Source of the DNA: Pelomonas cellulosilytica
GTDB lineage: Bacteria > Pseudomonadota > Gammaproteobacteria > Burkholderiales > Burkholderiaceae_C
NCBI RefSeq assembly: GCF_021353265.1
Contig: NZ_JAJTWU010000007.1
Span: forward strand, 248,001-312,000
Direction: 5' to 3'
DNA length: 64,000 nucleotides
This document shows, piece after piece, positions 25,506 through 47,542 of this stretch (position 1 is its first letter; the number at the start of each line of letters is the position of its first letter). The notes below the pieces were generated by a model that saw only the letters and a program-made list of their open reading frames with translations, made no database searches and was not told where the DNA came from. Made by a program: the position numbers and the translations under genes.

Positions 25506-25640
25506 TGTGCGCTGACTCATAAGCTGCAAGTTCAAGCCCTTATCTGACAAGCACTTAGCGAAGCTCCACTCACCATAAGCTGCAAGCTTCGACCCCCATA
25601 AGCTGCAAGTTTCCGCCAACATTAACGCATAAGCTGCAAG
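25506..25640. repeat. Transposon left end: four TnsB-type binding repeats
   Basis: Four identical copies of CATAAGCTGCAAG in the same orientation lie at 25518-25530, 25574-25586, 25597-25609 and 25628-25640. Spacing is irregular (start-to-start 56, 23 and 31 bp), as in the spread sites of a Tn7 left end. The region from 25641 to the PLD gene at 25764 holds nothing recognisable. Confidence 0.92.
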
Positions 25641-25763
25641 CCCTAGCTTCAAGGACGACGCATCGGACTGGCACTCTGACACCAGACCAGACCACTTCCC
25701 CATCGCTTGGCGATGCCGCAGCGCGATAGGAACCGCCCGCCACATGCGGTCGTATGGCTAAGG

Positions 25764-26417
25764 CTAGAGACGCTGCCAGGGGTACGAGAGAACCGTCTTG
25801 AGCAGCGGTCGCATCAGCCGCTCGACTTCATCGTCGAATTTTTCATCGTAAAACGCGATGTGAGGCGCGAGTCGACCGCCGCCCCAGTAGTGGAACGCAT
25901 CGTGCACGGCTTGATCAGCATCTGCGTGCGTGCGCAGCCAATAGAAGCTGTCAGCCTCAACATTGACGCGCTCCGGTGACGCAACGAACTTGTGCTCGCT
26001 GTTCCCATACATCGTGGGACTTGTGAGATTGCTGCTGCCCACGATCGCCAGCACGGGTCGCTCCCCACTGACGAAAACTGAGACTTTCGCGTGCCATCTA
26101 AGTGCTTGCTCGCCAGTACGAGGCGCGCGTAGTCGATTGGCGCTGGTGTTGATCCCGCATTTGACGAGCGCGTCCCTGAGGGCACACATTGAATCCGCCT
26201 TCTCGTGGTATCCGCCATACAGGAACACCTCCTTTCCGCCCATCTCTTCGTCGATCTGGAAGTCAGGAGCCCAGTCCGCCAGCTCGGCGGTGAAATCGTT
26301 GAAAAAGCCGGAGGCGATATGGATGCTGTCGATGTCCCACGACCTGAGTGCGCGTATCAGCACGTCACGAAAATGGCTGTCTGAAAACTGCGTACGAACT
26401 GCGATTGCGATCGGCAT
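25764..26417 (-). CDS. PLD-like (HKD) nuclease-family protein
   Basis: A 217-residue protein with one phospholipase-D-type motif: H and K in RWHAKVSVFV, then GSSNLTSPTMYGNSEHKFV. This is the style of PLD-superfamily restriction nucleases and helicase-associated domains, which dimerise to build the two-HKD active site. ATG 26417 is chosen because the conserved strand begins there; in-frame ATGs upstream (26441, 26477) are possible. It sits alone at the left end of the transposon, downstream of and co-directional with the restriction operon, separated by 314 bp. A defence or DNA-processing role is inferred from neighbourhood. Confidence 0.65.
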   Translation of the reverse strand: MPIAIAVRTQFSDSHFRDVLIRALRSWDIDSIHIASGFFNDFTAELADWAPDFQIDEEMGGKEVFLYGGYHEKADSMCALRDALVKCGINTSANRLRAPRTGEQALRWHAKVSVFVSGERPVLAIVGSSNLTSPTMYGNSEHKFVASPERVNVEADSFYWLRTHADADQAVHDAFHYWGGGRLAPHIAFYDEKFDDEVERLMRPLLKTVLSYPWQRL

Positions 26418-26431
26418 TGCCGCTTGTCCTG

Positions 26432-26653
26432 TTAAACACATCCACCCTGAGTCCGTACATTGCGGCTGATTCTGCACGCCTGGAACGCCCGCAAGTTGCG
26501 ACTTGTTCGACCAGCTGCAACTTGATCACGGGTGCACCGGCTCACCTCGAACCGCACAAAATTCGCCAACCGCCCCGACTCCGACATCTCGTCATACGAC
26601 ACCAGCAAGTAGGGCCATGGCTTGCTGCCGACCGACGCCGCATGGTCAGACGC
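26432..26653 (-). pseudogene. Unrecognised open fragment between hsdM and the PLD gene
   Basis: The 314-bp gap 26418-26731 holds a 74-codon minus-strand segment open between two stop codons, with a coding-like amino-acid mix (SKPWPYLLVSYDEMSESGRL and ANFVRFEV). There is no convincing start codon. It may be the C-terminal scrap of an older cargo gene. I do not recognise the family. The rest of the gap holds nothing notable. Confidence 0.3.
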
Positions 26654-26731
26654 TTACTTGCATCAACGCACCGCAGCAGCAGCCACAGTCATTGAGCTCG
26701 AAGAAGGCAGCCAGATTGCCAGCGGTAGCCC

Positions 26732-28363
26732 TTACCGTTCTACTTCGGCGCCGTAAGGGAGCGGTGGCAGCCCCAGTTCCTTGAGGAATTCATTGTGTTG
26801 ATCGGTGGCTGCCCTGATCTTCTGATCCAACGCCACCAGCTCCGCATGCACGGCCGCCAGTTTGACTTCTTCCTCTGCCTCGGCCGTGCTCACGTAGCGC
26901 GAGATGTTCAGGTTGAAGTCGTGTTCCTTCTCGATGACTTCCAAAGGCACCCTACGCGAGTAGCGAGGCTCTTCCTTTCGGTAGCGGTAGGTATCGACGA
27001 TTTTGTCGATGTGCTCGGGCAGCAGCTGGTTCTGCCGTTTGCCCTTCTCGAAGTGCTCAGCCGCGTTGATGAACAGCACGTCATCGGGCTTCTTGCACTT
27101 CTTCAGCACCAGGATGCACACCGGAATGCCCGTGGAGAAGAACAGGTTCGCCGGTAGGCCGATCACCGTGTCAATATGCCCATCCTTGAGCAACTTGGTG
27201 CGGATACGCGCCTCAGCCCCCCCACGGAACAGCACGCCGTGAGGCAGGATGATGGCCATCACGCCGTCCTGCTTCAGGAAGTGGAAACCATGCAGCAGGA
27301 AGGCAAAGTCAGCGGCAGACTTCGGTGCCAAGCCATAGTTCTTGAAGCGGGTGTCCTCGCCCAGCGCCTCGCTCGGTTCCCAGCGGTAGCTGAATGGCGG
27401 GTTGGCCACAACCGCGTCGAACTTCGGCATCTTGGCAGGGTTGGTTTCACGCAGCATGTCCCACTCGTTGAGCAGGGTGTCGCCGTGGAAGATTTCGAAC
27501 TCCGAGTCCTTCACCCCGTGCAGCAGCATGTTCATGCGCGCCAGGTTGTAGGTGGTGATGTTCTTCTCCTGCCCGTGAATCGTGCCGATGCCATGCGGCC
27601 CCATCCGGTGGCGCACGTTCAGCAGCAAAGAGCCAGAACCGCAAGCGAAGTCGAGCACGCTGTCCAGATGCGAACGCTGGCCCGTGGCGGGCTCCTGACT
27701 GTCCAGCGTGACGATGGCCGACAGGATGTCTGAAATGCGCTGCGGCGTGTAGAACTCGCCAGCCTTCTTGCCCGAGCCTGCCGCGAACTGGCCAATCAGG
27801 TATTCATAGGCGTCGCCCAGGGTGTCGCTGTCGGTGGAGAACTGGCCCAGGCCCTTGGCGATTTCGGCGATGATCTTGCACAGGCGGGCATTGCGCTCGG
27901 CGTAGGTCTTGCCCAGCTTGTCCGACGCCAGGTTGATCTCCGAGAACAGCCCCCGGAAGGTGCTGGCGAAGGATTCTTCCTCGATGTATTTGAAGCCGGC
28001 TTGTAGCGTGATGAGCAACTCAGCGTGCTGTGTGCGAGCCATCTCGGCGATATTGCCCCACAGGTATTGCGGCTCAATAACGTAATGCACCTTGCGGCGC
28101 ATTTGTTTCTCGAACTCGGGCACATCGTCTAGATTGCCTTCATACCATTGCTGCAGCGGCGTGGAGACCGAACCATCGATCTGCGGCGGGTAGTCCGACC
28201 CCAGCTCTTTCTGGGCGGCTGCTTCGTAGTTGTCCGACAGATAGCGCAGAAACAGGAAGGCCAGCATGTAGTCGCGGAAGTCATCCGCATTCATCGCGCC
28301 GCGCAGTTGGTCGGCAATGGCCCAGAGGGTCGCGCCCAGTTTTCGTTTTTCGAGATCGGTCAT
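26732..28363 (-). CDS. hsdM: Type I restriction-modification methyltransferase subunit
   Basis: A 543-residue N6-adenine methyltransferase. The N-terminal HsdM helical domain (KRKLGATLWAIADQLRGAMN) leads to the SAM site DFACGSGSLLLNV near residue 239 and the catalytic NPPF in VVANPPFSYRW near residue 320. Its ATG lies within the stop of the PrrC-like gene (ATGA). It is the last gene of the operon, so modification is made from the far end of a transcript that begins with hsdR. With HsdS it would protect the host at the recognised sites. Confidence 0.95.
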   Translation of the reverse strand: MTDLEKRKLGATLWAIADQLRGAMNADDFRDYMLAFLFLRYLSDNYEAAAQKELGSDYPPQIDGSVSTPLQQWYEGNLDDVPEFEKQMRRKVHYVIEPQYLWGNIAEMARTQHAELLITLQAGFKYIEEESFASTFRGLFSEINLASDKLGKTYAERNARLCKIIAEIAKGLGQFSTDSDTLGDAYEYLIGQFAAGSGKKAGEFYTPQRISDILSAIVTLDSQEPATGQRSHLDSVLDFACGSGSLLLNVRHRMGPHGIGTIHGQEKNITTYNLARMNMLLHGVKDSEFEIFHGDTLLNEWDMLRETNPAKMPKFDAVVANPPFSYRWEPSEALGEDTRFKNYGLAPKSAADFAFLLHGFHFLKQDGVMAIILPHGVLFRGGAEARIRTKLLKDGHIDTVIGLPANLFFSTGIPVCILVLKKCKKPDDVLFINAAEHFEKGKRQNQLLPEHIDKIVDTYRYRKEEPRYSRRVPLEVIEKEHDFNLNISRYVSTAEAEEEVKLAAVHAELVALDQKIRAATDQHNEFLKELGLPPLPYGAEVER

Positions 28364-29475
28364 GATGTACCTGCTGTTGCGGCCTCAGGAGCCTGCGGGA
28401 ACAAATCGGGATTGAATGGGTAGCGATTCAGGAAGTCGTTCAGAATCTTCTTGAAGTAAGCCTTGTTCTCATCGAGCATCTGCTGCGGCTCATATAGCGA
28501 ATAGTTGCCGTGGCTGAGGATGTTGATCAGGCGCGTGTGCAGAATGCCGTCCGGGTCGTCATCGTCTTGCTTGATGCATACCGAGAAATTCTTGTGCCCG
28601 TGAAAGCTGGCCGTCTTCTCCAGAATCGTGCGCAGCATGTTGAAGTGGTGGGTAAACAACCGGTCTTCCTGCATAGCCTGGTACAGCTCGGCTAAGGCAG
28701 CTACGTGGTGGAAGAATGGCGTGTCGCCATCTTCGGGGCGCAGCAGATAGCTACCGCTTGCCGATTGTTTGTTGACGACATACCTGCGGGCCTTGCCCAT
28801 CTCGTTGCACAGGACATTGAAGAACAAAGTGTGATGCGTGGAGATCACCGTCTTCAGCTTGTTGTCCTGCCGTTTAAGCAATTGCGCCAGATGGTTGGCA
28901 ACGGCGATCGCATTGTGCTCATCCAGCGAGGAAATCGGATCGTCGATATACAAGTACTTCACCCACTGGTAAGCCTCGATCTCCGGGTCCATCGCCAGTT
29001 CGACCACGGCCAGGAAGAAGCACCAGATGAAGATGTTTTCCTCGCCGCGCGATACCTTAATGTTGTCAACGGTCTGCCCGTCTACCAAGCGCGAAAAGCG
29101 CACTGCCCACTCGGCGCCTTGAGTGTCGATGCGGAAATCGAAGTCTGCATAACGTCGCAGCAGCGGGCGGATGCGGTTGTCCATTTCCAGCTCGAACAAG
29201 CCCTGGAAAAAGCGCGAATCCCTATTGAGCAGCAAGCGGCGATCAGAATCGTCTGCCAGATCATTGTTCCAGTGGAACAGATCTTCGGTGAAGGCGTTGA
29301 AGTACAGGGTATCGCGGGCCTCGCCCTGCTTGCCCATGTCCTTGAAAGCCATGGACAGCCGAGTCTTGCCGGTGCCGTTGTAGGCGTAGAGCAGGATGGT
29401 TTTCTTGGCTTCCAGTTCCGCACGCAATAGGGTGGCAAGGGCAGTGAGGTCGGCAACGGTCTGGCCTGGCTTCAC
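28360..29475 (-). CDS. PrrC-like anticodon nuclease candidate with ABC-type ATPase
   Basis: A 371-residue protein starting at GTG inside the hsdS stop (GTGA). The ATPase part shows Walker A AYNGTGKTRLS (residues 31-41), a signature-like VSRGEENIF (141-149), Walker B YLYIDDPISSLDE (174-186) and an H-loop STHHT (212-216). The C-terminal part has R282, E286 and H322 (LRTILEK... LSHGNYS). Spacing is close to the reported Arg-Glu-His catalytic triad of E. coli PrrC (320, 324, 356). PrrC is held silent by a type I restriction complex and cuts tRNA-Lys when phage disables that complex. The placement next to hsdS and hsdM and the length near PrrC (396) fit. tRNA cleavage is inferred; a related AAA_13 ATPase with another effector is the alternative. 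Confidence 0.7.
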   Translation of the reverse strand: MKPGQTVADLTALATLLRAELEAKKTILLYAYNGTGKTRLSMAFKDMGKQGEARDTLYFNAFTEDLFHWNNDLADDSDRRLLLNRDSRFFQGLFELEMDNRIRPLLRRYADFDFRIDTQGAEWAVRFSRLVDGQTVDNIKVSRGEENIFIWCFFLAVVELAMDPEIEAYQWVKYLYIDDPISSLDEHNAIAVANHLAQLLKRQDNKLKTVISTHHTLFFNVLCNEMGKARRYVVNKQSASGSYLLRPEDGDTPFFHHVAALAELYQAMQEDRLFTHHFNMLRTILEKTASFHGHKNFSVCIKQDDDDPDGILHTRLINILSHGNYSLYEPQQMLDENKAYFKKILNDFLNRYPFNPDLFPQAPEAATAGTS

Positions 29476-30677
29476 GCTGAAACCCCATCAAGTACGGGGA
29501 AAAGTTGCTGCATCAGGCCCATTTTGTGGGTCTTGAGTGCGCCTATTTTCTGGGCCTGGATGTCAATCGATTTATCGAGTGCTCCAAGGCTTTCTGCGAT
29601 TCGCTCTTGCTCCCTCTTCTTGGGACAACGCACAATAATCTCTGAAAATGTTGTCTTGTTGATGATTGGAACCGCGTGATTTCCAGCCAACTCCGATATG
29701 CGCGCAGACTCTCGGAGTAACAGGTAGTAGATGAAATCTCCGGAGAAGTCGGCGAACGGAACCAGAGAGTTTATCTGTTGATTGGTCGCGCACCTAAACT
29801 TGTTCTGCGCGACCTTGCCAATCGTTGACCCAATGCAGACAAATAAAACGCTGCCTTCTGCAATTTGCCTTGTCTGCTCGAGGCCAAGCTTGGTTAGGGA
29901 TGTTTTTGTTTTCTCAATAAATCGGTGATCTGAAATATCGGCAGGAGAAACGAAATCAAACTCGCCGCCATAGTATTGACGCTTTGATGTGCTCGGAGTG
30001 TTGCCTGTGATTACTTCCCCAAGCTGACCTATGCTCCACTCCGGCCATTCCTCTGTATCCGCAAATTCCGGGAAGCGCCGTTGAGGCAGCGTCTCACCCT
30101 CGCGGGGGAAAAGCTGTTGCATTAGGCCCGTTTTGTGTGTCTTGAGGGTGTCCAGCTTCCTGGTTTCCGCTGTGATCAGCTCATCAAGGGAAGACAGGCA
30201 GTCGGCGATTTTTTGTTGTTCTCCAGACTTGATGTCCGGAAAAACAACTGCACGCTCTTTCAGTATTGAAAAATGACGCTTGTAATCTTCCATCGCCAAC
30301 TGACGGTGGCTGAGGGAATGGAACAGATATTCAGCGGAGATGGCGGATTTTGCTTTGAGAATTTTGATGCCATCGGCGCCTTGTGCAAATGGTTTGTCAA
30401 CAAACTTGAGGGTGCAGGTGTGGTCGCCAAATACGATGAGTGGCAGCGATTCAGTAATTACAGCGCTCTCATCATCAGTCCAGCCGCAAATGGGTCCTTG
30501 GGACTGGTCGATGATGGGAAACTTACCTTGCATCCGATAGCTGGACGATTGCAGTTTCAAGGGGGGACTAACCGTAGTGATAAGTTGCTCCAACTTTTCA
30601 CTACCCCATTCTGCGGCTTCTCGGAATTCAGGAAACCTCAACCGTGGAACCAAAGGGCATTCTACTTTTTCACTCAT
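29472..30677 (-). CDS. hsdS: Type I restriction specificity subunit
   Basis: A 401-residue protein with two target-recognition domains. Each begins with a PRLRFPEF/RRFPEFADTEEWPEW-type entry and ends with a conserved helix (TLKTHKTGLMQQLFPREGE near residue 190; ALKTHKMGLMQQLFPV near the C-terminus). The two near-identical QQLFP helices are the usual internal repeats that set the spacing of the bipartite target. The target sequence cannot be predicted by eye. An AGGAG site lies in the 3' end of the AlbA_2 gene, which stops 5 bp upstream. Confidence 0.93.
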   Translation of the reverse strand: MSEKVECPLVPRLRFPEFREAAEWGSEKLEQLITTVSPPLKLQSSSYRMQGKFPIIDQSQGPICGWTDDESAVITESLPLIVFGDHTCTLKFVDKPFAQGADGIKILKAKSAISAEYLFHSLSHRQLAMEDYKRHFSILKERAVVFPDIKSGEQQKIADCLSSLDELITAETRKLDTLKTHKTGLMQQLFPREGETLPQRRFPEFADTEEWPEWSIGQLGEVITGNTPSTSKRQYYGGEFDFVSPADISDHRFIEKTKTSLTKLGLEQTRQIAEGSVLFVCIGSTIGKVAQNKFRCATNQQINSLVPFADFSGDFIYYLLLRESARISELAGNHAVPIINKTTFSEIIVRCPKKREQERIAESLGALDKSIDIQAQKIGALKTHKMGLMQQLFPVLDGVSA

Positions 30678-30682
30678 GCGCG

Positions 30683-31837
30683 TTACTCCTGCGGCCGCGC
30701 GACGATGGCCTTAAACAGATTCCCGACTCGGTCGTCGATTAGTTCAATCTGCGGCCAGGCTCGTAAGGCACGCAGTAGACCGCTACCCAGTCCGCGATAC
30801 GGCAGGAGCTTGGCGGCAAACGATGCCAGGATGGGATTGCGCATATTGGAGTTGCCAGCCTTGATGTTCTCGATGGTCAGGTTGTTGGGCAGGTGGCCGG
30901 GACTGATGATCTCGACCCGATCCGCAAACACCAGAACACGGACCGGCGCGCTGACGAAGTAGTCGCGGTGGATGAGGGCGTTGGCGACCAACTCTTCCCA
31001 GACGATGCGCGGAATCTCAGGCTGGCCCTGGGTGTTGAAGCCCTGCTCGCCCTGCGCGGCTCGGGTGTTGGCGACGATGAAGCCCAGCGTCTGCTGGAAC
31101 ACATCAGCCAGCTTGCCGGTGATGTCCCGGCTGTCGATGTAGCGCTCGTCCTCGATCTCTGTGCCGACAAAAGCGACGGCCTTGACGATGAAGGCGGGTA
31201 GCGCGTACTGCGGTGTCTTTGCGAATAGCAGGCCGCCCGCCACGTTGAGCTGCCCCTGGTTCATCAGGTTCATGTTGGTCAGCAACTGTGGCAGCGGCTG
31301 GTTGTGCTGGGCGAGTGGCTCACCGAATTGCTGCTCGAAAAAGGCTTCGAAATAGGGCATGTCCACATCGCCCGCGCTCAAGCCCGCCACGGGCGTTTCG
31401 TCGGCGTGCACCAAGCCCGCCTGCTGGAACAGCCGCTGCAATTCCTCGCGCGAGGTGGCGCGGCGCTTGTCCGAGCCGTTCTTCACCCAAATTGCGCCGT
31501 TCTTGTCCATGTAGGGCTTGTTAACGCCCTCAGCGATGGAGAGCACCAGCACCGTGCCTGCCGGGTGGGGCACGTTTTCCGTGAGCGGGTTCACGGCGGG
31601 ACGCACGACCTGTGAGGCCACGTTGGCGATGAGGAGGTTGAGACGAGAAACGTCGGCGCCGGATAGGCCGCGTACCGAACCGTCGTCGTTCACCCCGATG
31701 AAGATGCGCCCACCAGCGGTGTTGCTGAAGGCAACGATCTCTGCCGCCAAGGCGTCGGCATTGTTCATGTCCGTCTTGAACTGCTGCCGACTGTCCTCGC
31801 CTCGGCTGAGCAGGTCGATCAGCTCTGTGGTTTCCAT
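30683..31837 (-). CDS. AlbA_2 (Schlafen-like) domain / RecG-type HATPase-like protein
   Basis: A 384-residue protein with an N-terminal AlbA_2 domain (SRQQFKTDMNNADALAAEIV, then AFSNTAGGRIFIGVNDDGSV, about residues 16-60) and a C-terminal ATP-binding region of the kind once annotated as RecG-like regulators (RIVWEELVANALIHRDYF; SPGHLPNNL; RNPILASFAAKLLPYRGLGS). Such proteins are recurrent inserts in type I restriction operons and other defence loci; the biochemical role is uncertain, with nucleic-acid binding likely. Its start overlaps the trlF 3' end by 19 bp, so it is coupled in the operon. Confidence 0.8.
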   Translation of the reverse strand: METTELIDLLSRGEDSRQQFKTDMNNADALAAEIVAFSNTAGGRIFIGVNDDGSVRGLSGADVSRLNLLIANVASQVVRPAVNPLTENVPHPAGTVLVLSIAEGVNKPYMDKNGAIWVKNGSDKRRATSREELQRLFQQAGLVHADETPVAGLSAGDVDMPYFEAFFEQQFGEPLAQHNQPLPQLLTNMNLMNQGQLNVAGGLLFAKTPQYALPAFIVKAVAFVGTEIEDERYIDSRDITGKLADVFQQTLGFIVANTRAAQGEQGFNTQGQPEIPRIVWEELVANALIHRDYFVSAPVRVLVFADRVEIISPGHLPNNLTIENIKAGNSNMRNPILASFAAKLLPYRGLGSGLLRALRAWPQIELIDDRVGNLFKAIVARPQE

Positions 31838-37430: not shown

Positions 37431-37501
37431 GAGTCTGTTCCTGCCGTCATGGATTCGTTGATGTGGCGGGCAGGTAGCACCCTGTGGCTCGAGCAGCCAT
37501 G

Positions 37502-37994: not shown

Positions 37995-38024
37995 TTACCA
38001 TACAACTTGAGTTTTGTATGGTAA
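37995..38024. promoter_or_regulatory. Perfect 11-bp inverted repeat over the start of the nucleotidyltransferase gene
   Basis: TTACCATACAA (37995-38005) and TTGTATGGTAA (38014-38024) are exact reverse complements with an 8-base spacer. The repeat spans the first possible ATG (38018) and ends 2 bases before the second (38027). It could be an operator for self-control or an RNA hairpin that limits translation. Confidence 0.55.
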
Positions 38025-39088
38025 CCATGAACCTACTCTCTGTTGAACTTTCCCTCGGTGCACAGACCTCGTACGCCGAGCTCTATGACATGGCCCGAAG
38101 TGTTACCAGCGATAGATTCGCGACCTTGCGGGGCTCGTTCCACCGTCGGCAGATCAAGAACAGGAGCTACGTCTACTTCAATTTCCGAGACGCCGACGGC
38201 CATGTCCGCTCAACCTATGTGGGACCGGCCGGTGGCCGCGTAAAGGAACTCGTCGACGAGTTCGAGCATGCCAAGACTGCCAGTCGCATTGAGGCTCTGG
38301 CCCAGCGCGCCCAGGCCAGCATGGCATTGGGATGCTGCCCACTGCCGGACAAGCATTTCAGGATCATCCACAAGTTGGCCAACTATGGCGTCTTCCGCTG
38401 GCGCGGGGTTCTGGTTGGAACGCACGCATTCGTCGCCATAGGCAACATGCTGGGCGTGCGGTGGAAGGACAGCGAGACGACGATGGGTCTCGAGTTCGCC
38501 GATGCTGATGGCCAAATCTTGATCGCGCTCCCTGCCGATCCTGAGATACCCACCCACGACACGATCTCATCGCTCGAGATAGGGCTACTGCCGGTCCGGG
38601 AGTTCTCTGGCCTTACCTCCGCTCAACGTCGCAACCAAGAGGCGCCCGCACTAAGGATCGAGTTCATGACGCCCGCCGGTAATGGTCATCAGGTAATACA
38701 GGTCCCCGAGCTGAACATTGCATTGCAGCCAAGGAGTTTCACGGAGTTCTTGCTCGAAGACACATGTCCAGGGGTGGCCTTTTCCAAGTCTGGCGCTTGC
38801 GCGGTAAATCTGCCGGCCCCAGAGCGTCTAGCGGTCCATCGCCTCATCATCCACGGCGAGCGACAGGTCACCGTGCGCACCAAGTCATCCAAGGGCCACG
38901 CGCAGTCCATGGGTCTGGCACAAGCCGCTGCGCTGATTGAGTGGCACACGGATCGGAACCGCAGCGCACCATTGCGCGAGGCTTGGCAGGACGCGCTGGC
39001 ACGCGGGTCGAACTGGCGCAAGAGCGCTGAGCAAGGGCGCGATGCGCTGCTGAAGCAGCACCCTGAGCTGGCCGAGGTATTTGACTAA
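38018..39088 (+). CDS. GSU2403-type nucleotidyltransferase-fold protein
   Basis: A 356-residue protein (353 if ATG 38027 is used; neither start has a good ribosome site). The N-terminal block TYAELYDMA... LRGSFHRRQIKNRSYVYF and the core ANYGVFRWRGVLVGTHAFVAIGNMLGVRW match the GSU2403/NTP_transf_8 family of nucleotidyltransferase-like proteins. The place where relatives show a TxDxD-like metal motif reads SETTMGLEFADAD, so catalytic Asp placement looks altered. Members often ride on mobile elements and behave like AbiEii-type proteins, but no antitoxin-like partner is intact here. It is the only plus-strand cargo gene in the left two-thirds of the transposon. Confidence 0.6.
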   Translation: MVTMNLLSVELSLGAQTSYAELYDMARSVTSDRFATLRGSFHRRQIKNRSYVYFNFRDADGHVRSTYVGPAGGRVKELVDEFEHAKTASRIEALAQRAQASMALGCCPLPDKHFRIIHKLANYGVFRWRGVLVGTHAFVAIGNMLGVRWKDSETTMGLEFADADGQILIALPADPEIPTHDTISSLEIGLLPVREFSGLTSAQRRNQEAPALRIEFMTPAGNGHQVIQVPELNIALQPRSFTEFLLEDTCPGVAFSKSGACAVNLPAPERLAVHRLIIHGERQVTVRTKSSKGHAQSMGLAQAAALIEWHTDRNRSAPLREAWQDALARGSNWRKSAEQGRDALLKQHPELAEVFD

Positions 39089-39360: not shown

Positions 39361-39421
39361 GGACGGATCCAATCCATTGTTGAGAGCGGCGGCGGGATTT
39401 CGAGCGGTCCAGCGCTGGCCA

Positions 39422-41689
39422 TCATGCTGCGGGACCAGGGCGTGCGTCGATGTGCGCGTCGAGCATTTGAAGAAGTTCGGGATTAGCGTGCAGGACGTTC
39501 CTGTTGACGCCACACGCCTGCGCAATCTGCAACTTGTTCAGCTTCGCGCCTCGCCGCGGCAAGGGCAGCCCACTCGCCGTCAGCCGCTGAAGGTACTGCT
39601 CTATGCGTAACTCCGGAGATTCGGTGATCGACAACTGGAACCTAAGCCCATCATCATGATTGGCGCGCTGCAGCAGCCTGCCGATCTCCGCATCCTTCGA
39701 GAACAAGCCACGATCGAAACCACACGCACGCGCGATCTCGGCTTTATTGGGAACGTTGCCTTTGCGAGGAAGCCTCACGCCGGAGCGCGCGAGATCTTCC
39801 AGATACCGCCTGAGCGCCTCGCCAGGCGATGGTCGCAGACGCCCGCGATGTGCTGGCCGCAATTCCCGAAGTCGGGATGCTTGTTCTCGCGGAACGAAGG
39901 CCGCGCATCCCCCTCGCCCAGCCGGGATTCGCAGAAGGGTCAGCCCCGCTTGCTCAGAAAGGTGCAACAACGTCGCGGCCTTGGTCCGCAAGTCCACGGC
40001 TATCAGCGGCAGCGGCACATACCGTTCAAGAAAGGAGTCGACCGATGCCTTCAGCACCCGCCCGTGTGGCACCGACTTGGCGTGAAGGTGGCCTCCAGCC
40101 ACCAGTGCAACGACAACCGCAGTGCTGCACGCAAGCATCTTGCCGGCATCCGTCCGCGAGATGGACGCTCCCGAGGCCCGGCTCGCTCGAGCATAGGCGT
40201 CTACCGTCGACCGCAGGAACACAAGCTCGGCTTGACCACTGCCAGGCACGCGGAATCCCTCGACGTCGCCGTCAAGATAACTCCCGAGGAAGGCCGCCTT
40301 GTGGCCGGCGCCGCCGAAACGCGTCTGCCTCATGACAGCGTCCAGCGTGATGGTGTCGCGAGCCGGTACGTCCACAGCCAGCGGGCCAGCCGTCGCAGCA
40401 CGGCCCAGAAGCTTCAACCGAAAGACTTCCACATCTGCGCTGTGGTACCCCCGCTTCATGGCGGGGCTGTTTGCGGCCACATAGTGCGATCCCTTCAATG
40501 CGGCCAACACCGCGACAGGGATCCCGAGCAGTCGGGCTGCGAGCCTCTCCTCGATGATTTGGCCTGGCGCGTCGGATTTCGCGGGCAGTTCCGAAGCGTC
40601 GGCTACGTATCGCGTTCGGCTCCCGCTTTCCACGGCCTTGATCGACAGTTTTCCTTCTTCAGCCCATTTGGACAAGGTCCGAGGATCGATGCCTGTGCGA
40701 CGCGCCAGCGCCGCCCGAGACGTGAATCGCGGATCTGTACCCACAGACAGCATCCGCGCATCGACGAGGCCCTCTCCCCACTGTTGCGCGCCAAACTGGA
40801 TAAACTCGCCGCGCAAGAATGCATGCTCAGGCCTGCCCTTCAGCATGGTTGAGTAAAACACGCCCAGCCTCGCAACGAGGCTGGGAGAGTGCGTCTTCGC
40901 ACCCGGCAGTTCGCCCAGCTTGCGGAGCAGTTGATGGAACTGCATGGGCCACTCGGCGAGCGATTCGGCGGCCGCTTCAACGATGGCCTCGTCGCTGCCC
41001 TCCGAGCTTCCTGATGCCGCCAGCAGCGCGAAGCTGCCGAGTTGCCGAACGAGCGCGACAAGCTCTTTCAGCGAGAGCATCGCCAACACGCCAGATGGCA
41101 GCAATCCCGGCGCCGATGGCGATGGCAGTTCCCCGTGCAACTTGGATCGCAGCGCTTCCATTAACCCGACGACCGCGTCACTTGCGCCGGGACGGACAGC
41201 TTCGCGCAGGTCCGCGCCGCATTTGCACTGCAAAAGCCCAGGACGGAACCAGGACAGCCCCAGGCCGCAGACCGGGCAGGCCTTCGTCAAAACCGTTCGG
41301 TGCCTGGGGCACGCAATCACGATCCCCAGATCCCAGAACGCGTCGATGAAGCCCATCTCATCGGCGCAGCAGGGACAAAATGCCGGGTGCCGCAGCCGCA
41401 GTGGCCGACACGCTGACGAGTCGCCAAGGTGGTGGCCCAACAACTGATACCCGATCGTTTTGCCGGAGTCTCGATAGGCAATCGCCTCGTAGGCCGTGAG
41501 GGGCCGCCCCGTCAGGGAGGAAAGCTTGTGGTGAGGAAAGCCTGGCGAGGCCATCTCACCTTGATGAATGCCGGCCTGCACGAGAACATGCCAGGGCGAG
41601 TCGTAGCCGTTCTCCTCGGAGAGGCGCAGCACATAGCCCAGCAGGCTCTCCGTCGGACGCGGTGAGGGAGTTCGCAGAAGAAGGGGCAT
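39422..41689 (-). CDS. tniQ: TniQ/TnsD-like target-selection protein
   Basis: A 755-residue protein, longer than E. coli TnsD (about 508). The N-terminal TniQ domain has ESLLGYVLRLSEENGY, then zinc ligands C105, C108, C127, H130 (CPCC...CPRH) and C138, C141, C155, C157. A helix-turn-helix segment (ALARRTGIDPRTLSKWAEEG) lies near residue 330. The C-terminus has two tandem repeats, about 624-676 and 692-744, of the form YLxxLxxSGxxLPRxG...NKxxIAxACGxxR, probably DNA-binding. It should bind the attachment site and recruit TnsC. The gene lies 51 bp after tnsC. Its target is proposed to be the nrdJ 3' end, from the insertion position. Confidence 0.88.
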   Translation of the reverse strand: MPLLLRTPSPRPTESLLGYVLRLSEENGYDSPWHVLVQAGIHQGEMASPGFPHHKLSSLTGRPLTAYEAIAYRDSGKTIGYQLLGHHLGDSSACRPLRLRHPAFCPCCADEMGFIDAFWDLGIVIACPRHRTVLTKACPVCGLGLSWFRPGLLQCKCGADLREAVRPGASDAVVGLMEALRSKLHGELPSPSAPGLLPSGVLAMLSLKELVALVRQLGSFALLAASGSSEGSDEAIVEAAAESLAEWPMQFHQLLRKLGELPGAKTHSPSLVARLGVFYSTMLKGRPEHAFLRGEFIQFGAQQWGEGLVDARMLSVGTDPRFTSRAALARRTGIDPRTLSKWAEEGKLSIKAVESGSRTRYVADASELPAKSDAPGQIIEERLAARLLGIPVAVLAALKGSHYVAANSPAMKRGYHSADVEVFRLKLLGRAATAGPLAVDVPARDTITLDAVMRQTRFGGAGHKAAFLGSYLDGDVEGFRVPGSGQAELVFLRSTVDAYARASRASGASISRTDAGKMLACSTAVVVALVAGGHLHAKSVPHGRVLKASVDSFLERYVPLPLIAVDLRTKAATLLHLSEQAGLTLLRIPAGRGGCAAFVPREQASRLRELRPAHRGRLRPSPGEALRRYLEDLARSGVRLPRKGNVPNKAEIARACGFDRGLFSKDAEIGRLLQRANHDDGLRFQLSITESPELRIEQYLQRLTASGLPLPRRGAKLNKLQIAQACGVNRNVLHANPELLQMLDAHIDARPGPAA

Positions 41690-41740
41690 GAATCGGGTAC
41701 GGTGAAACGATGCGCTCGCTCGGCGTCAGCCGAGCGAGCC

Positions 41741-42772
41741 TCAGGTCGCCGCCAGCGTCTGCGCCAGAGACGGCTTGGCCGGTGCCTTTTGACGGCGGGA
41801 CGGGCGCTCAGGCTGAACGCTCTGGACATGCTCGCCCAGCGACAACGCGATGGAGATGGCCTCCTGCGTCGGCTCCGCCGAGAACGATCGGCTGAAAGGC
41901 GACTTCTCCTGTGCCATCTCTGTCGCACTGCAGACCGACAGTTGGTGCGCTTTGCGAAGGTCTTCCAGGGTGATCTTGCGCGCCCCTTCGTCGCAGGCTG
42001 TCCAGACGACCTGACGCAGAAACTTGGTGAGGTAGCCCATAAGCCCCCCGGTCGCAAGCCAACAGCGATAGGCCATGCCCTCACCGCTCAGATCCGGCAT
42101 GTCGAAATGCTCCGACACCGCCACGGTGAATGAGTCCAGTATGCCGACGAAGGCTTCTCGATCGCCGTCGTCGAGCCAGTTGAAGCGCCGCATGAAGATG
42201 GGTGCGAGAAAGCGGCCCGACAACTGCTCGTTGCGCAACAGCACCGGCAGGCAACTCTCCAGGCCGCAAACCACCAGGGTCACGCGGGTTTCATCGACAA
42301 GGATCTTGAGCCAATCGGCGGCGTCATGAAAGATCTTCTGGGTCCCCTTATCGAAGAAGTGCTGGAATTCGTCCAGCATCAGCATGATGGTCCCGGCTTT
42401 CTTCATCTGGGTTTGCAGCCGAGCCGTCTTGTTGTTCTGAGTTCCCTTCTCCCAGTTCGGATCGCCCAGCGCCCGCAGCATTAGTTCCGCCAAACCCTTG
42501 ACCGTTGGTGACGAGGGGACACGGATTCGCAGGATGGGAACCACCGCACCGTTCGCAGTGCGCGAGCGCGGCCGGGTGCTTTCGACCTCCTCGAGCACAC
42601 GCGATTTTCCCGTTCTGGACTCCCCCACGACGGCCAGGCAGATCGGCTCTGACGAGCCAAGGCTGTAGTCGAGCCCTTGCTGAAGGCGCTGGACCGCAGA
42701 TTGAAAGGCGGTGTGGGGAATGAGCGTGCTCTCAACAACACGCCGAATGTCGTCGTTCGTTCGAATTTTCAT
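41741..42772 (-). CDS. tnsC: TnsC/TniB-like AAA+ ATPase
   Basis: A 343-residue regulator of transposition. Walker A is GESRTGKS (residues 50-57), Walker B LMLDEFQHF (131-139), with sensor-like VCGLES and the RRFNWLDDGD block. TnsC polymerises on DNA with ATP and passes the target chosen by TniQ to the transposase. It starts 3 bp after tnsB, in one operon. The Pro/Lys-rich tail after residue 310 is probably the part that contacts TnsA/TnsB. Confidence 0.93.
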   Translation of the reverse strand: MKIRTNDDIRRVVESTLIPHTAFQSAVQRLQQGLDYSLGSSEPICLAVVGESRTGKSRVLEEVESTRPRSRTANGAVVPILRIRVPSSPTVKGLAELMLRALGDPNWEKGTQNNKTARLQTQMKKAGTIMLMLDEFQHFFDKGTQKIFHDAADWLKILVDETRVTLVVCGLESCLPVLLRNEQLSGRFLAPIFMRRFNWLDDGDREAFVGILDSFTVAVSEHFDMPDLSGEGMAYRCWLATGGLMGYLTKFLRQVVWTACDEGARKITLEDLRKAHQLSVCSATEMAQEKSPFSRSFSAEPTQEAISIALSLGEHVQSVQPERPSRRQKAPAKPSLAQTLAAT

Positions 42773-42775
42773 TGA

Positions 42776-44833
42776 TCAGAGTTCGTCCTTCCATGTGCTT
42801 TCTTGACGCTGCCGCTTCACCGGCGCGAACTTGAGGGTCTTCGTCGGCATCGGAATCGGCGGCATGGCCGGAGCCGTTGGCGGCGATTCGACGGGCTCGT
42901 TCGGACCTGTCGATGGGCAGGTCGCCACGCTGGTGGTCGGAAGAGCCGCTCCCGCGTCGGCAGGCGCGCTTTGCACCGCAGGCGACGAACTCGAGCCCGT
43001 GATGTATCGGCCGACCCGCTTGGCCGACTTCGCCGGGGCTTTTGTGCCGCGAGGCTTGGTTTTCTTCTTCCAGTTGAATTCCTGGTGGATCATCTCGGCG
43101 ATGGCCGTCTTGGCCTCTTGCCATCCTGCCGAGTCGTGTTTGCCGAGTTGCAGCGCTGCATGCCGCTTGCAGACCTTGTGCTGCCACGCCGTCATGCCCT
43201 TCGCGTAGGACAGCGCTAACGCTGGTGCAACAAACATGCGCTTCTTGTCCGGAGAGAGCACCGTGATGGAGCCGATATCGCCGTCGTTGATGCAGATCTC
43301 GACCTCCAGACGCTCGCCCAACTCACGGCGAAGCGTCGTCAGTTCCGGCGAGTTGTAAAACAAGCCGTCCAGTTCAATGCCCTTGTGCGATAGAGATCGC
43401 TGCACTCGTCGTCCCAGGATCGCATCCAGTTGGGCAGGGTCGTCCGGCAACTGGATGTCTTCCAGGGCCACCGACGACCTCCAGAGTTGGGCGGGGGGCA
43501 CCTTCAAACTTCGGTGAGGACGCTCGTGGTACACGTCAACAATCCATTTCATGACAATGTGGCGCAGCGTGCTCAGGCGCACGACCGCGTGCTTCGACGG
43601 GTCATAGTCATCCTTTTCGAAGATGTTCGAGAACGTGGTCCCGGGAGCCCCGTGGAGGAGCGATGAATTCAACGTACCTAGAAATCGTTCGATCTTTCCT
43701 TTGAACCAAGGGGTCTTCCGGGGCGCGTAGTGGATCTCGATGCCCAGCGTGAGGCAGGCCGTTTCCAAGCTATCGCTGTGGAACTCGGCCCCGTTGTCCA
43801 TGCAAAGCTCCTGCATGACGCCATGCGCATCCCAGTCCTGGACGACCTCGGGGTAGTCAGCCCGCGTGTTCAACTTCGGAAGAAACGCGTGCTTGAGACA
43901 CCGTGCAACGGTCAGGTAACTCGCCGGCTCGAATCCGATCGAAATACCGAGCACGCAGCGGGTGAAGTCGTCGATGCACGCGGTCAACAACGGTCGGCCG
44001 AGCGGCAGACCGGTGGTGTCGTCGACCACCATGATGTCGAGCACCGTGTGGTCGATCTCTGCGCGCACCAGCGGCCCATCCGTAGTCCGGTGCCGTTGGA
44101 CGGATCGGTAGCGCCGCACGGCTGCTTCGCGCCCGTATCTGGCCTGGCATCGGTCAAAGGCAGAGATTTCGTTGATCAATCGCTTGACCAATCTCCGCTG
44201 TGGGAGGGGAAGCTGATCCTCTTCTGGGCGCAGCTTGTTTTCCCGCCGCACCGCAGTCACGGCCGCATCGATGGTGTCCTGAATCGTCTTTCGTTCTTTC
44301 GTGAGATAGACCTTCTCGATGGCGTTTTCGACGAATTCGATCAAACGATCTTCATAGCGCTCTGTTCTGTTTCCCTTTTTCTCATTCTGCGCAACGACGG
44401 CATTGATATCCATCCCGGCGGACAAAAGCTTGGCTTTCCAGCGAGAGACCGTCGTCCAGTGAGGTGGCGTCGCGGGCTTTCCGATCTTGGCCCATACCCG
44501 CGCGGCGACATCTCGCAATGCTGTCTCTGACGACGGTCCCTTGGCCGCTTCCACCGCGTAGGAGCGTCGCACCTTGGCGCGCTCCATGAGCGGCTGCGCG
44601 ACTTCGCGATGCACCTTTCCGATCTTTGCGCCCTTGTAAGAAGCATCCTCCTGGGTAAAGCTCAGTCGGCCATCGACATAGAGATGCCTGAGTTCGCTTT
44701 CGGACTTTTGGTGAAGTCGACCGGTCTTCGTTTCTTCGATTTGCCACATTTCAGCGTCAAGCTTCCTGCGCATGACGAACTCGATGCCGTCGATGCGAAA
44801 GCTTGCGTCCTTTTCAAACCTCCTTGTCGCCAC
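42776..44833 (-). CDS. tnsB: TnsB-like DDE transposase
   Basis: A 685-residue transposase (from the GTG at 44833) that binds the 13-bp end repeats and joins 3' ends to the target. Helix-turn-helix regions lie in the first 230 residues. The catalytic triad is in VRAEIDHTVLDIM (D261), CMDNGAEFHS (D346) and KGKIERFLGT (E382), with 36 residues between the last two. A Mu-type beta-barrel and a Lys/Pro-rich tail follow. The start is uncertain: GTG 44833 overlaps the preceding gene by 20 bp and has a GAGGAG upstream; the next ATG is at 44773. The stop is 3 bp before tnsC. Confidence 0.93.
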   Translation of the reverse strand: MATRRFEKDASFRIDGIEFVMRRKLDAEMWQIEETKTGRLHQKSESELRHLYVDGRLSFTQEDASYKGAKIGKVHREVAQPLMERAKVRRSYAVEAAKGPSSETALRDVAARVWAKIGKPATPPHWTTVSRWKAKLLSAGMDINAVVAQNEKKGNRTERYEDRLIEFVENAIEKVYLTKERKTIQDTIDAAVTAVRRENKLRPEEDQLPLPQRRLVKRLINEISAFDRCQARYGREAAVRRYRSVQRHRTTDGPLVRAEIDHTVLDIMVVDDTTGLPLGRPLLTACIDDFTRCVLGISIGFEPASYLTVARCLKHAFLPKLNTRADYPEVVQDWDAHGVMQELCMDNGAEFHSDSLETACLTLGIEIHYAPRKTPWFKGKIERFLGTLNSSLLHGAPGTTFSNIFEKDDYDPSKHAVVRLSTLRHIVMKWIVDVYHERPHRSLKVPPAQLWRSSVALEDIQLPDDPAQLDAILGRRVQRSLSHKGIELDGLFYNSPELTTLRRELGERLEVEICINDGDIGSITVLSPDKKRMFVAPALALSYAKGMTAWQHKVCKRHAALQLGKHDSAGWQEAKTAIAEMIHQEFNWKKKTKPRGTKAPAKSAKRVGRYITGSSSSPAVQSAPADAGAALPTTSVATCPSTGPNEPVESPPTAPAMPPIPMPTKTLKFAPVKRQRQESTWKDEL

Positions 44834-45518
44834 GACCAGGCTCCTCGTCAAAAGGGTGTTGGTCGGATCGGGGACTCGGCATGGCCGGCAACCTCTCCGG
44901 CCGGGCTGCATGTCGCAGCACATGCACGACTTCGATCAGCGTCGAGTCGATCTCAGTACGTTCATTCGACGCGAGGCATCGCCAAGACCGCTCCGCGCGG
45001 GAACTGCTAGCCGTCAGCGGCGCGCGCGGTGACGGCTTTGAGTCCGCATGGCATCGTCGACCGGCACGTACGAGCAAGCCGTTGGGACCATGGAGCGATT
45101 GCTCGATAACGCGCTTGCACTGCTCGATGCTTTCAAATGCCCCAAACCTCAAGATTGTTTTGCCCAGCCAACGTTCGAGCTGCAATCCGGACTTGCTCCT
45201 GCCATGCCTGGCTTGGTGGCTGATCGCGACGCAGTTGGCAAAACCCCAGTCTTCGAGGTGCAGACTCATTCCTTCGAGTCTGCAGTCCGTCCAAATTTGC
45301 TGCGGGAGGCCATAACGGGCAGCCGCTTGGTCACAAAGCTCATAGAGCCGCGCCGCAGAAAATCTTGAATCGACATTGACCGCCAACACCGTGGCCGGCA
45401 CACCGCCCATCAGGGCGAACGCGCGGCACCGCTGACCGTTGAGGAACTCAAACAGCGCAGTGGAGACACTCCATTCGTCGAAGGCCGCACGAGAAAACTT
45501 CTCGACGTTGATCTTCAT
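44814..45518 (-). CDS. IS3-type integrase-like protein with degraded active site, between tnsA and tnsB
   Basis: A 234-residue protein whose ATG lies in the tnsA stop (ATGA). It follows the IS3/rve integrase core in order: W16-x-x-S19 where IS3 has WxxD, LNGQRCRAFALMGGVPATVL, VDSRFSAARLYELCDQAAAR then YGLPQQIWTD (D78, but CRLEG instead of NGPEF), and LQLERWLGKT (E115, in place of IESFNG). Thus the second Asp and the Glu persist, with spacing 37, while the first catalytic Asp is Ser. The last 75 residues are Arg/Ser/Pro-rich and probably disordered. Its intact frame and coupling suggest a retained structural job in the transposase complex rather than decay. This gene is not part of the standard tnsABCD set known to me. 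Confidence 0.7.
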   Translation of the reverse strand: MKINVEKFSRAAFDEWSVSTALFEFLNGQRCRAFALMGGVPATVLAVNVDSRFSAARLYELCDQAAARYGLPQQIWTDCRLEGMSLHLEDWGFANCVAISHQARHGRSKSGLQLERWLGKTILRFGAFESIEQCKRVIEQSLHGPNGLLVRAGRRCHADSKPSPRAPLTASSSRAERSWRCLASNERTEIDSTLIEVVHVLRHAARPERLPAMPSPRSDQHPFDEEPGRGDKEV

Positions 45519-46258
45519 TGATTCGACTCCGCCGGATTGGAAAAGTCCGCTTGCTGACCGCGCCATGTCAGCGGCCGGCTGTCCAAGATGGGAGTCGTCA
45601 GGTCAAGCGCGATGGCACCTTCCAGAATCAGGCGGCAAGCGAAGTACTGACCCTTTGCGCCGAGTGCGCCGCGTTTGACATCTCCCCAGGTCAAGTTGGG
45701 GGCCCGCTCAAACGTGACTCGCAGCCGTTCGCGTTCGACCGCCGGGATGTCTGCGCGGCCCAATCGCAGTACCTCAAGCACGGTCTTGAGCCGGGGCCGA
45801 CGCCCAAGATCCTCTGCGTGAACAACTCGATAAACGTAGCCGAGGGTTGGCAGTGCCGCTGACATGAGCGCGGTACGCCGGGCCACCTCTGGCGTTGCGG
45901 CGTCTTCGGCTGTCTTCACCTCCCACAACTCCTTACCCTGTCGCGTGGTGACCCGGATGTCCGGGTAGTGCTCATGCTCCACACCGTCGAGGCGGTACTT
46001 GATTACCAGTGGTTGCTCGGCGAATTCCAAAACCGCGGAATTTGCATCCAGAAGTCTGAAGGCGTTCAATTCATGAGGAGACTCCCAATGGATCATTCGC
46101 CCCATTTTCCAGCTTGGATATTTGCCAGAACCGCGCGCCTTCGATCTGGAGATAACCTTTCGCGATCTAATTCGATCACCTTCTGGGTATTCAATCGCAA
46201 GGATTGCGTCTTCGGCGCCACCGAATGCAGCGTTCGCATCTTTCACACACAGATCCAA
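45515..46258 (-). CDS. tnsA: TnsA-like endonuclease of the heteromeric transposase
   Basis: A 247-residue protein with the restriction-nuclease-like fold. Catalytic candidates are E63 (SPHELNAF), D100 (HYPDIRV) and E113/K115 (LWEVKTAED), matching the E...D...ExK order of TnsA. It cuts the 5' ends so that transposition is cut-and-paste. The start is TTG 46258, 7 bases after an AAGGAG; a GTG four codons later is an alternative. It is preceded by a small HTH gene (16 bp) and overlaps the IS3-like gene. A C-terminal helical domain for TnsC contact follows. Confidence 0.88.
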   Translation of the reverse strand: MDLCVKDANAAFGGAEDAILAIEYPEGDRIRSRKVISRSKARGSGKYPSWKMGRMIHWESPHELNAFRLLDANSAVLEFAEQPLVIKYRLDGVEHEHYPDIRVTTRQGKELWEVKTAEDAATPEVARRTALMSAALPTLGYVYRVVHAEDLGRRPRLKTVLEVLRLGRADIPAVERERLRVTFERAPNLTWGDVKRGALGAKGQYFACRLILEGAIALDLTTPILDSRPLTWRGQQADFSNPAESNQ

Positions 46259-46274
46259 ACCACAACTCCTTCAA

Positions 46275-46508
46275 CTATTTAGGTTTAATATCGATCAACC
46301 ATTGCACAACGTCGCCAGTCAGAGCAAACTTCCCTTTCCGCCCTGGAATTTCAAAAACCCGCACCGGCAACATTCCCCTTCTCAATGCCTGCCTGAAAGC
46401 TGCCATTGAAGAAAACTTCAACAGCGACGCCAGCTGCTTTCCGTTGATCAATGGCCCGTACTGCTCATTTAGCGAGCACCTCAAATCATCACGATCATCT
46501 TGGTTCAT
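46275..46508 (-). CDS. Small HTH protein leading the transposition operon
   Basis: A 77-residue protein starting at ATG 46508 (NQDDRDDLRCSLNEQYGPLI). The block INGKQLASLLKFSSMAAFRQ then ALRRGMLPV and the end FALTGDVVQWLID have the winged-HTH layout of AlpA/excisionase-like proteins. Lying 16 bp before tnsA, it is a likely regulator of transposition genes or an end-binding accessory factor. Specific function is inferred only from fold and position. Confidence 0.6.
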   Translation of the reverse strand: MNQDDRDDLRCSLNEQYGPLINGKQLASLLKFSSMAAFRQALRRGMLPVRVFEIPGRKGKFALTGDVVQWLIDIKPK

Positions 46509-46674
46509 ATAGCCTTCCATACGCCACAAGATCCATATCTCGACTGGAAACCAGGTCGACCCCACAAAGCAATTGCGTCAACGCTTCGCAGATTACGCAC
46601 AGTCACGCTTGGTTGCACCCGAGCGCGGTGTTATGCACAATGCCAGCCAAAACACCGATGAGAGTTGACCGACT

Positions 46675-47382
46675 GTGGCGGATGAAATAAGTGAGAGCGA
46701 TGGGAACGGTCTACAGCCAGCTGGTGCGGATCAGCTAAAGCAGCCCACTCTCGCTGGGCGCATTGACGGGCTCCGAGGCATGGCTTGGGCGTATGCCGTT
46801 TTGCTGCACACGGGATATTCGGCCTCTGGCGCATCCAAGCGCTTCTCTGCCACCCCGGCAGGTGACGTCGAAATCAACAATTCAAAGTTGATGTATCAAT
46901 ATCTTCGGGGCGACCGGGCTCCAACTCGAGGACCACGAGGGAGGTATGGATTTGATTTGGTGGCGGCGGTTGATTCCCATCACACCGGCCGCAATGCGAC
47001 GCGCTGGCTCGATCACCCGATTTGGACGATATTCGATGCAAACATCAGCAGCAGAGAACTAGCACCATTTCTTGACGAAGAGACGTTAGACCCGATCGTT
47101 GGGCAGTATTGGCTTGATGACGAGATCCCTACAGACGGAGCAGAGGCCAGCCAGCTAGAAAACGCTCTGAAATTCTTTGACTTCGACGGCTATATATATC
47201 TATGCGCACTGCTCAGGGCCGCCAATTTCGCAGGCATTCGCGCAAAGTCCGGAAAAGCTCTTCATTTCTCGCTTCTGGAATACCTTACGCCACATGCAGC
47301 TCGGGCAGAGCCTGTGTTCGGATTTATTCAGGCGCCTTTCCTGCAGATGATTCGTGACTTCCATTTCCCGGCCAAAAAATAA
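46675..47382 (+). CDS. Hypothetical protein at the transposon right end
   Basis: A 235-residue protein starting at GTG 46675, divergent from the transposition operon. No signal peptide, membrane segment or known motif was recognised. It has an acidic middle (APFLDEETLDPIVGQYWLDD) and an aromatic C-terminus (FFDFDGYIYLCALLRAANF). A perfect terminator hairpin starts 1 base after its TAA, and codon use is AT-richer than the host genes. These support a real, recently acquired cargo gene. Function unknown. Confidence 0.55.
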   Translation: MADEISESDGNGLQPAGADQLKQPTLAGRIDGLRGMAWAYAVLLHTGYSASGASKRFSATPAGDVEINNSKLMYQYLRGDRAPTRGPRGRYGFDLVAAVDSHHTGRNATRWLDHPIWTIFDANISSRELAPFLDEETLDPIVGQYWLDDEIPTDGAEASQLENALKFFDFDGYIYLCALLRAANFAGIRAKSGKALHFSLLEYLTPHAARAEPVFGFIQAPFLQMIRDFHFPAKK

Positions 47383-47417
47383 GGCCGTCAGCAAGCTAAT
47401 GCTGACGGCCTGGTTTT
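47383..47417 (+). terminator. Rho-independent terminator
   Basis: GGCCGTCAGC (47383-47392) and GCTGACGGCC (47401-47410) form a perfect 10-bp stem with an 8-base loop, followed by TGGTTTT. It directly follows the stop of the 46675-47382 gene and would also insulate the transposon end. Confidence 0.88.
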
Positions 47418-47474
47418 GAAAAGCCGCGGCGGGCTGTTACTTCTGACGCTGGGCCCCTCGGCCACCCCGAAAAG

Positions 47475-47542
47475 CTTGCAGCTTATGGGGTCCAGACTTG
47501 CAGCTTATGGGGTCCAACTTGCAGCTTATGGGGTCCCGGACA
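47475..47542. repeat. Transposon right end: three closely spaced TnsB-type repeats
   Basis: Three copies of CTTGCAGCTTATG (the reverse complement of the left-end repeat) lie at 47475-47487, 47497-47509 and 47518-47530, start-to-start 22 and 21 bp, each followed by GGGTCC. The last is followed by 12 bp ending GGACA at 47542. The tight array opposite a spread left end mirrors the asymmetric ends of Tn7. Confidence 0.92.

Follow-up and report, generated by a model that had tools for sequence, protein, structure and literature searches.

What determines the place at which a Tn7-like transposon settles in a bacterial chromosome? The question is raised by a 64,000-nucleotide stretch of the Pelomonas cellulosilytica genome (6.35 Mb in 29 contigs), positions 248,001 to 312,000 of contig NZ_JAJTWU010000007.1, hereafter the window (G000:C27:248001-312000 in our numbering), whose coordinates are used below. 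Positions 25506-47542 hold a 22,037-bp element that, as read from the sequence, is an intact-looking Tn7-like transposon. An earlier note on this DNA left the target of the element open; our analysis identifies it as the putative attachment site at the 3' end of nrdJ, the gene of a class II ribonucleotide reductase.

The boundaries of the element can be read directly. It begins with TGT at 25506, finishes with ACA at 47542, and is flanked by two copies of ACGTG, the target-site duplication, at 25501-25505 and 47543-47547. The 13-bp sequence CATAAGCTGCAAG has seven exact copies in the window, all within the two element ends. Four of these TnsB-type sites follow TGT in the left end (25506-25640, forward strand), at 25518-25530, 25574-25586, 25597-25609 and 25628-25640, and three precede ACA in the right end (47475-47542, reverse strand), at 47475-47487, 47497-47509 and 47518-47530. 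At up to two mismatches the window contains nine matches versus 1.29 expected, and none of 100 shuffles reached nine. The outermost copy lies 12 bp inside the element at either end. Several TnsB-type sites in inverted orientation between TGT and ACA termini, together with a 5-bp duplication, are features of Tn7-like transposons. The same layout was found in a related element of another genome of the family, G1098. It occupies 63,932 bp (G1098:C11:198429-262360) from the right TGT at 198429 to the left ACA ending at 262360. Copies of ATCCG flank it at either end, and the same TnsB-type site lies 12 bp within its right end. Its left end is homologous to that of the window element; the alignment covers the outer sites and a 15-bp block, TGACAAGCACTTAGC, that is identical in the two (25545-25559, forward strand, in the window) and distinct from the TnsB-type repeats. 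With its own duplication and the same end layout, the G1098 element independently supports the boundary rule. Between its right end and tnsA it carries about 15 kb of cargo.

The transposition genes form one co-directional cluster on the reverse strand: tnsA, encoding the endonuclease (45515-46258, PF08722), tnsB, encoding the DDE transposase (42776-44923, Pfam rve and Mu-transpos_C), tnsC (41741-42772, Pfam TniB/AAA) and tniQ (39422-41689, 755 amino acids, PF06527). None of the four has an internal stop codon, and the tns genes of the G1098 element are open as well. The TnsB homology with relatives starts around residue 31, at a GTG that may serve as the start codon. Residues D291, D376 and E412 of TnsB are invariant in an alignment of three homologues, and we take them, by eye, to be the DDE residues typical of the family; in the same way, we presume a PD...EVK motif in TnsA and a Walker A motif in TnsC. 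In comparisons between relatives, the proportion of nonsynonymous differences (pN) in element genes is far below that of synonymous differences (pS), as expected if the genes are kept functional. Open frames, the presumed catalytic motifs and the low pN make present-day mobility of the element plausible. The earlier note had given the termini, the matching 13-bp repeats 12 bp from the ends, the ACGTG duplication, the exact boundaries and four intact genes, tnsA, tnsB, tnsC and tniQ; all of these hold to the base, the G1098 element follows the same boundary rule, and each gene is open with a match to its Pfam family.

The right-hand neighbour of the element is nrdJ (47570-51607, reverse strand, Pfam), and the element begins 27 bp beyond its stop codon, with its tnsA side facing nrdJ. 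The left end is flanked by a PTR2/POT transporter gene (24004-25485, forward strand, Pfam). Both host genes are undisrupted and the insertion interrupts no gene. The last 90 bp of nrdJ (47570-47659, reverse strand), where 61 of 90 alignment columns are invariant in 20 genomes, are the proposed recognition region of the attachment site. Among 19 congeners, 17 have a strong nrdJ match, and 11 of these 17 have PTR2 downstream of nrdJ within the stretches fetched; thus, the nrdJ-PTR2 pair is ancestral. The gap between the two genes is 52 bp in G019, 66 bp in G007, 564 bp in G003 and wider still in the remaining ones, up to about 23 kb. Deletion of the element and one ACGTG from the window predicts a gap of 42 bp. 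A base-exact empty site was not found among these genomes, the spacers in G007 and G019 being too diverged for a check of the single ACGTG.

Relatives of the element were sought by three TnsB searches. The first, covering 399 genomes from the order, yielded one close relative, G113 (56% identity). A scan of genome contigs with a two-row TnsB alignment gave four loci, including Mitsuaria sp. WAJ17 (62%). A TnsB profile screen of 399 genomes of the family at E <= 1e-120 retained five: the window genome, G444 (whose coordinates match those of the Mitsuaria contig), G449, G1098 and G1147. In four of the five (window, Mitsuaria, G449 and G1098) the element is at nrdJ. The three relatives belong to other genera, and their TnsB and TniQ proteins are 56-64% and 34-45% identical, respectively. 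All four elements have the tnsA side toward nrdJ, the outermost site starts 12 bp inside TGT in each, and the distance from the nrdJ stop codon to TGT is 27 bp in the window, probably 31 bp in Mitsuaria, 28 bp in G449 and 30 bp in G1098. Insertion adjoining a conserved gene at an approximately constant distance and in a single orientation is characteristic of Tn7-like transposons. For the right end in Mitsuaria we used the TGT at 7677 (31 bp), which is accompanied by three exact sites at the window's spacing; a TGT at 7648, 2 bp past the stop codon and with a degenerate site, is the less probable alternative. Taken together, the ends, the duplication, the open genes and the recurrent nrdJ-adjacent insertion at near-constant distance and in one orientation are read directly from the sequences.

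Other candidates were not included in the nrdJ group. The TniQ of G1147 is 24% identical, its right end lies in another region and its nrdJ is on a separate contig. In G613, from a search of the class, TniQ similarity is limited to the N-terminal part, and the 25 kb read contain no nrdJ. No nrdJ was found in the assembly of G113, where contigs are short and the element site was not placed. A search of genome contigs with TniQ alone detected no relative, and neither did a search of viral contigs with the TnsB alignment. Among plasmids, megablast found nothing and tblastn gave only partial TniQ matches below 36%.

In an independent pattern search for the specificity of the association, we scanned the 399 family genomes for an nrdJ end joined to an element end (TGCGGSTGA, a gap of 25-54 bp, and CATAASSTGC), with the reversed pattern as a control. 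Ten genomes matched versus two for the control, and four of the ten are those with the nrdJ elements. Two matches of identical sequence (in G840 and G1155) consist of an nrdJ-like end followed by a single motif with no TGT at 12 bp, and were dropped; the other four matches (L131-L134) have no nrdJ match. In four carriers of a more distant Tn7-like TnsB (G059, G402, G270 and G152) no recognised end was found at any of the four nrdJ flanks read.

The nrdJ-adjacent insertions look independent of each other. Among the four elements, the number of synonymous substitutions per site (dS) is 1.3-2.1 in tnsB, with 0.30-0.39 nonsynonymous substitutions per site (dN), and 2.3-4.4, near saturation, in tniQ, whereas it is 0.5-0.9 in the 170-odd C-terminal codons of nrdJ. 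The element genes are therefore more diverged than the gene beside them, while one inherited insertion would give similar values. A close TniQ is absent from all 19 congeners.

The candidate reader of the site is TniQ. Its TniQ domain (PF06527, residues 6-134) is followed by a large C-terminal extension rich in helix-turn-helix (HTH) motifs; in sequence and in the structure model, this is the organisation of a TnsD-type protein. HTH_17 is listed for all five TniQ homologues at E <= 1 (best 7.3e-14), the HTH_17/MerR-type match being below the Pfam cut-off in the window protein. In the structure model, residues from about 380 to 680 have a predicted local distance difference test score (pLDDT) of roughly 75-87 in most blocks and form repeated strand-helix-helix-strand units. 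HTH-like modules are modelled at residues from about 320 to 612, and two tandem modules follow at 618-690 and 691-750. In a Foldseek search with the model, the sole match below 0.001 was a TniQ (6v9p, 3.7e-4). The tandem modules (residues 618-750, window 39422-39650) weakly resemble VPA1267-family proteins, below the cut-off, and occur in some nrdJ-site TniQs only.

We propose that the element is, very probably, a cut-and-paste Tn7-like transposon, employing TnsA and TnsB, that homes to the nrdJ 3' end by means of its long TnsD-like TniQ. TniQ, the sole recognised target selector, would use its HTH-rich C-terminal part to bind the conserved 3' coding end of nrdJ, and its N-terminal domain to engage TnsC; both the binding and the recruitment of TnsC we infer by analogy with TnsD, the binding also from the recurrent insertion. 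TnsC would then direct TnsA and TnsB, and the excised element would be joined about 27-31 bp past the nrdJ stop codon, with the tnsA side toward nrdJ and a 5-bp duplication. In this way nrdJ would be kept intact, and the cargo of type I restriction-modification, PrrC and TrlF genes could spread between hosts while occupying a safe site.

Several observations weigh against this proposal. Taken as a whole, the TniQ model is weak (mean pLDDT 61.7, predicted template modelling score 0.27), and in profile self-comparison of TniQ the last two units are the only ones supported as homologous (99.1%, the others at most 15.5%). These last two modules are missing from the G449 and G1098 proteins, so that the reading of nrdJ, if by TniQ, should reside in residues of about 320-612. 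TniQ proteins of the nrdJ site share just 34-45% identity, and a small TniQ tree groups that of G449 with that of G113, whose site was not placed. The insertion distances differ (27, 28, 30 and 31 bp, and 35 bp for a lone end in G014). In Mitsuaria the outer boundary is ambiguous between 2 bp and 31 bp and tnsC carries an in-frame stop; left ends were sought in the Mitsuaria and G449 elements and none was found. Finally, the window tns operon contains an additional gene, orf250, that could impair its expression.

Could the shared site instead reflect common descent or a general hotspot? A single ancestral insertion beside nrdJ, inherited vertically and lost in most lineages, would make the site uninformative about targeting. 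It would fit with the occurrence of all four carriers in one family and with the syntenic position of nrdJ, but it is extremely unlikely given the excess of tnsB dS (1.3-2.1) over that of the adjacent nrdJ (0.5-0.9), the different insertion points and duplications (ACGTG and ATCCG), the close nrdJ-PTR2 junction kept in two congeners and the lack of a close TniQ in all 19. If, on the other hand, the region downstream of nrdJ were a general hotspot, where convergent genes and a tolerant spacer allow landing without specific recognition, the variation of the nrdJ-PTR2 interval from 52 bp to about 23 kb among the 11 of 17 congeners and the metabolic insert of G014 would be natural. A tolerant spacer alone, however, does not fix one orientation and a distance of 27-31 bp in four of four cases, and a conserved coding end with insertion downstream of it is the TnsD pattern, known for Tn7 and glmS from the part of PMC11406308 consulted; we therefore regard a hotspot as highly improbable.

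Targeting of nrdJ by a factor other than TniQ, such as orf250, the right-end open reading frame (ORF) at 46675-47382 or a host protein, is quite improbable too. It has a precedent in TnsF, which according to the sections of PMC10293859 consulted selects comM in Tn6022, and the Mitsuaria element keeps the right-end ORF. Yet tblastn (E <= 1e-5) finds neither ORF in the stretches of G449 and G1098, both at nrdJ (the stretches contain the tns genes of both elements, and the right-end cargo of G1098 at positions 198429-200000 lay outside the search), and the window TniQ has the long C-terminal part that the same sections of PMC10293859 tie to direct target selection. A different doubt concerns activity, as the element might be a dead, immobile relic. 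The separation of tnsA and tnsB by orf250 and the decay of the Mitsuaria relative speak for this, but four open tns genes, exact end repeats with a duplication, and pN well below pS render it unlikely.

Returning to the TniQ-guided transposon proposed here, a close parallel is Tn7 (TnsABCD, glmS). The two share TGT/ACA ends, several TnsB sites, a 5-bp duplication, TnsA with TnsB and TnsC, a long TniQ/TnsD, and insertion just beyond a conserved gene with the tnsA side facing it. In contrast to Tn7, the window element lies at nrdJ and PTR2 rather than glmS, its TnsB is distant from that of Tn7 (2e-14 in a PDB search), and the C-terminal part of its TniQ differs. The nearest solved relatives of TnsB come from PseCAST and Tn6677 (2.9e-72 for PseCAST TnsAB, 1.3e-57 for Tn6677 TnsB), and TniQ has core similarity with type I-F and I-B TniQ structures. 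Unlike these CRISPR-associated transposons (CRISPR, clustered regularly interspaced short palindromic repeats), which combine a short TniQ with Cascade, the window element has one long TniQ and neither a CRISPR array nor a Cas hit. The Tn5053/Tn402 family shares a TniB-type TnsC, the TniQ domain and a DDE transposase; its members, which are not known to carry tnsA, transpose replicatively with a resolvase, whereas the window element has tnsA and a long TniQ. Tn6022 (comM, TniQ with TnsF) has the Tn7-like core, but the window element leaves its target gene undisrupted, has no recognised TnsF homologue and encodes a long rather than a short TniQ. TniQ-directed insertion beside a conserved chromosomal gene is also shared with Tn7017 (I-F3, with a parE-targeting TnsD), Tn6230 (yhiN) and tRNA-targeting TnsD elements; their target genes differ, and nrdJ is not among the entries in the consulted part of PMC11406308 Table 1.

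The earlier note had also described a dense defence cargo and no CRISPR parts, and both descriptions are borne out. On the reverse strand, the cargo includes hsdM, a type I methyltransferase gene (26732-28363; Pfam and defence profiles), a PrrC-type anticodon nuclease gene (28360-29475; PADLOC PrrC, E 2.6e-142), hsdS, for the type I specificity subunit (29472-30677; family matches), a gene for an AlbA_2/Schlafen and HATPase_c_4 protein (30683-31837; Pfam), a gene for a Ppl-related AAA-like ATPase of the TrlF family (31819-34461; TrlF_fam_ATP 589 bits, cut-off 350; Ppl below its own cut-off), and hsdR, for a type I restriction enzyme with an EcoR124-type C terminus (34458-37505; family matches). 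PrrC genes are known to occur within type I restriction-modification loci. Two further cargo genes encode a protein with weak phospholipase D-type nuclease similarity, below the Pfam cut-off (25764-26477, reverse strand), and an NTP_transf_8 nucleotidyltransferase (38018-39088, forward strand; Pfam). A repeat search revealed no CRISPR array, the only direct repeats of at least 20 bp inside the element being the end sites, and the Pfam hits for the ORFs scanned included no Cas family. Nor did these hits include a TnsE name, although no search was aimed at TnsE. Rfam at gathering thresholds gave no family within 24000-52000 of the window.

The gene orf250 (44814-45566, reverse strand) lies between tnsA and tnsB, overlaps both and is similar in alignment to an IS3-like integrase core, as a fragment whose first catalytic Asp is apparently lost, being not conserved in the alignment. 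It has no Pfam, PHROG or NCBIfam match, and neither the Mitsuaria nor the G113 element was found to contain it. The right-end ORF (46675-47382, forward strand), of unassigned function and without a Pfam or PHROG match, has a counterpart (55%) at the corresponding position of the Mitsuaria element. The host genome contains a second, distant Tn7-like tnsB (29%) with a tniQ at G000:C25:238506-242526. An intein with a LAGLIDADG domain is present in the host nrdJ at 49601-50737; the nrdJ genes of Mitsuaria and G449 lack it, although their alignment with the host gene extends to either side.

The nrdJ flank of other genomes contains further end-like sequences. In G014 (L113, G014:C11, around 621) a right-end-like sequence is located 35 bp past nrdJ and followed by about 23 kb up to PTR2, occupied mainly by metabolic genes in the ORFs scanned; as neither a tns gene nor a left end was found within 25 kb, it was not counted as an element. 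TGTGCGCTGCAC-type sequences followed by a TGAAAG-like motif occur 2-4 bp beyond the nrdJ stop codon in L114 (G012, around 794), L115 (G003, around 1510) and L091 (7648), and resemble the right end of the G1147 element. Either another Tn7-like lineage left them behind or they are native.

The choice of target is what defines Tn7-like elements, and only a small number of attachment genes is known; glmS, yhiN, comM, parE and tRNA genes are named in the consulted portions of PMC11406308 and PMC10293859. In the literature available through PubMed Central (PMC), subscription papers and supplements being outside the search, insertion at nrdJ or a ribonucleotide reductase gene was not linked to Tn7-like elements, and the word "ribonucleotide" is absent from the main texts of PMC10293859, PMC8649781 and PMC11406308. 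This points to the nrdJ 3' end as a landing site undescribed in the literature searched. A broader claim we advance only tentatively, as possible but doubtful in its entirety: that the nrdJ 3' end is an undescribed attachment site reused family-wide by Tn7-like elements, that the run of winged-HTH-like modules in TniQ is a modular reader of the conserved codons for the C-terminal cysteine motif of NrdJ, and that a second lineage, whose ends are of the TGTGCGCTGCAC type, may dock at this gene end as well, only 2-4 bp after the stop codon. If this broader claim is true, islands of defence and metabolic genes would have a permanent docking place at nrdJ. Protein-guided insertion beside a ribonucleotide reductase gene would in itself constitute a new testable TniQ-target pair, accompanied by a natural series of diverged TniQs, apparently all readers of one DNA, and by two elements for which both ends are known. 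It would also make the nrdJ flank a place to seek cargo islands in nrdJ-bearing bacteria.

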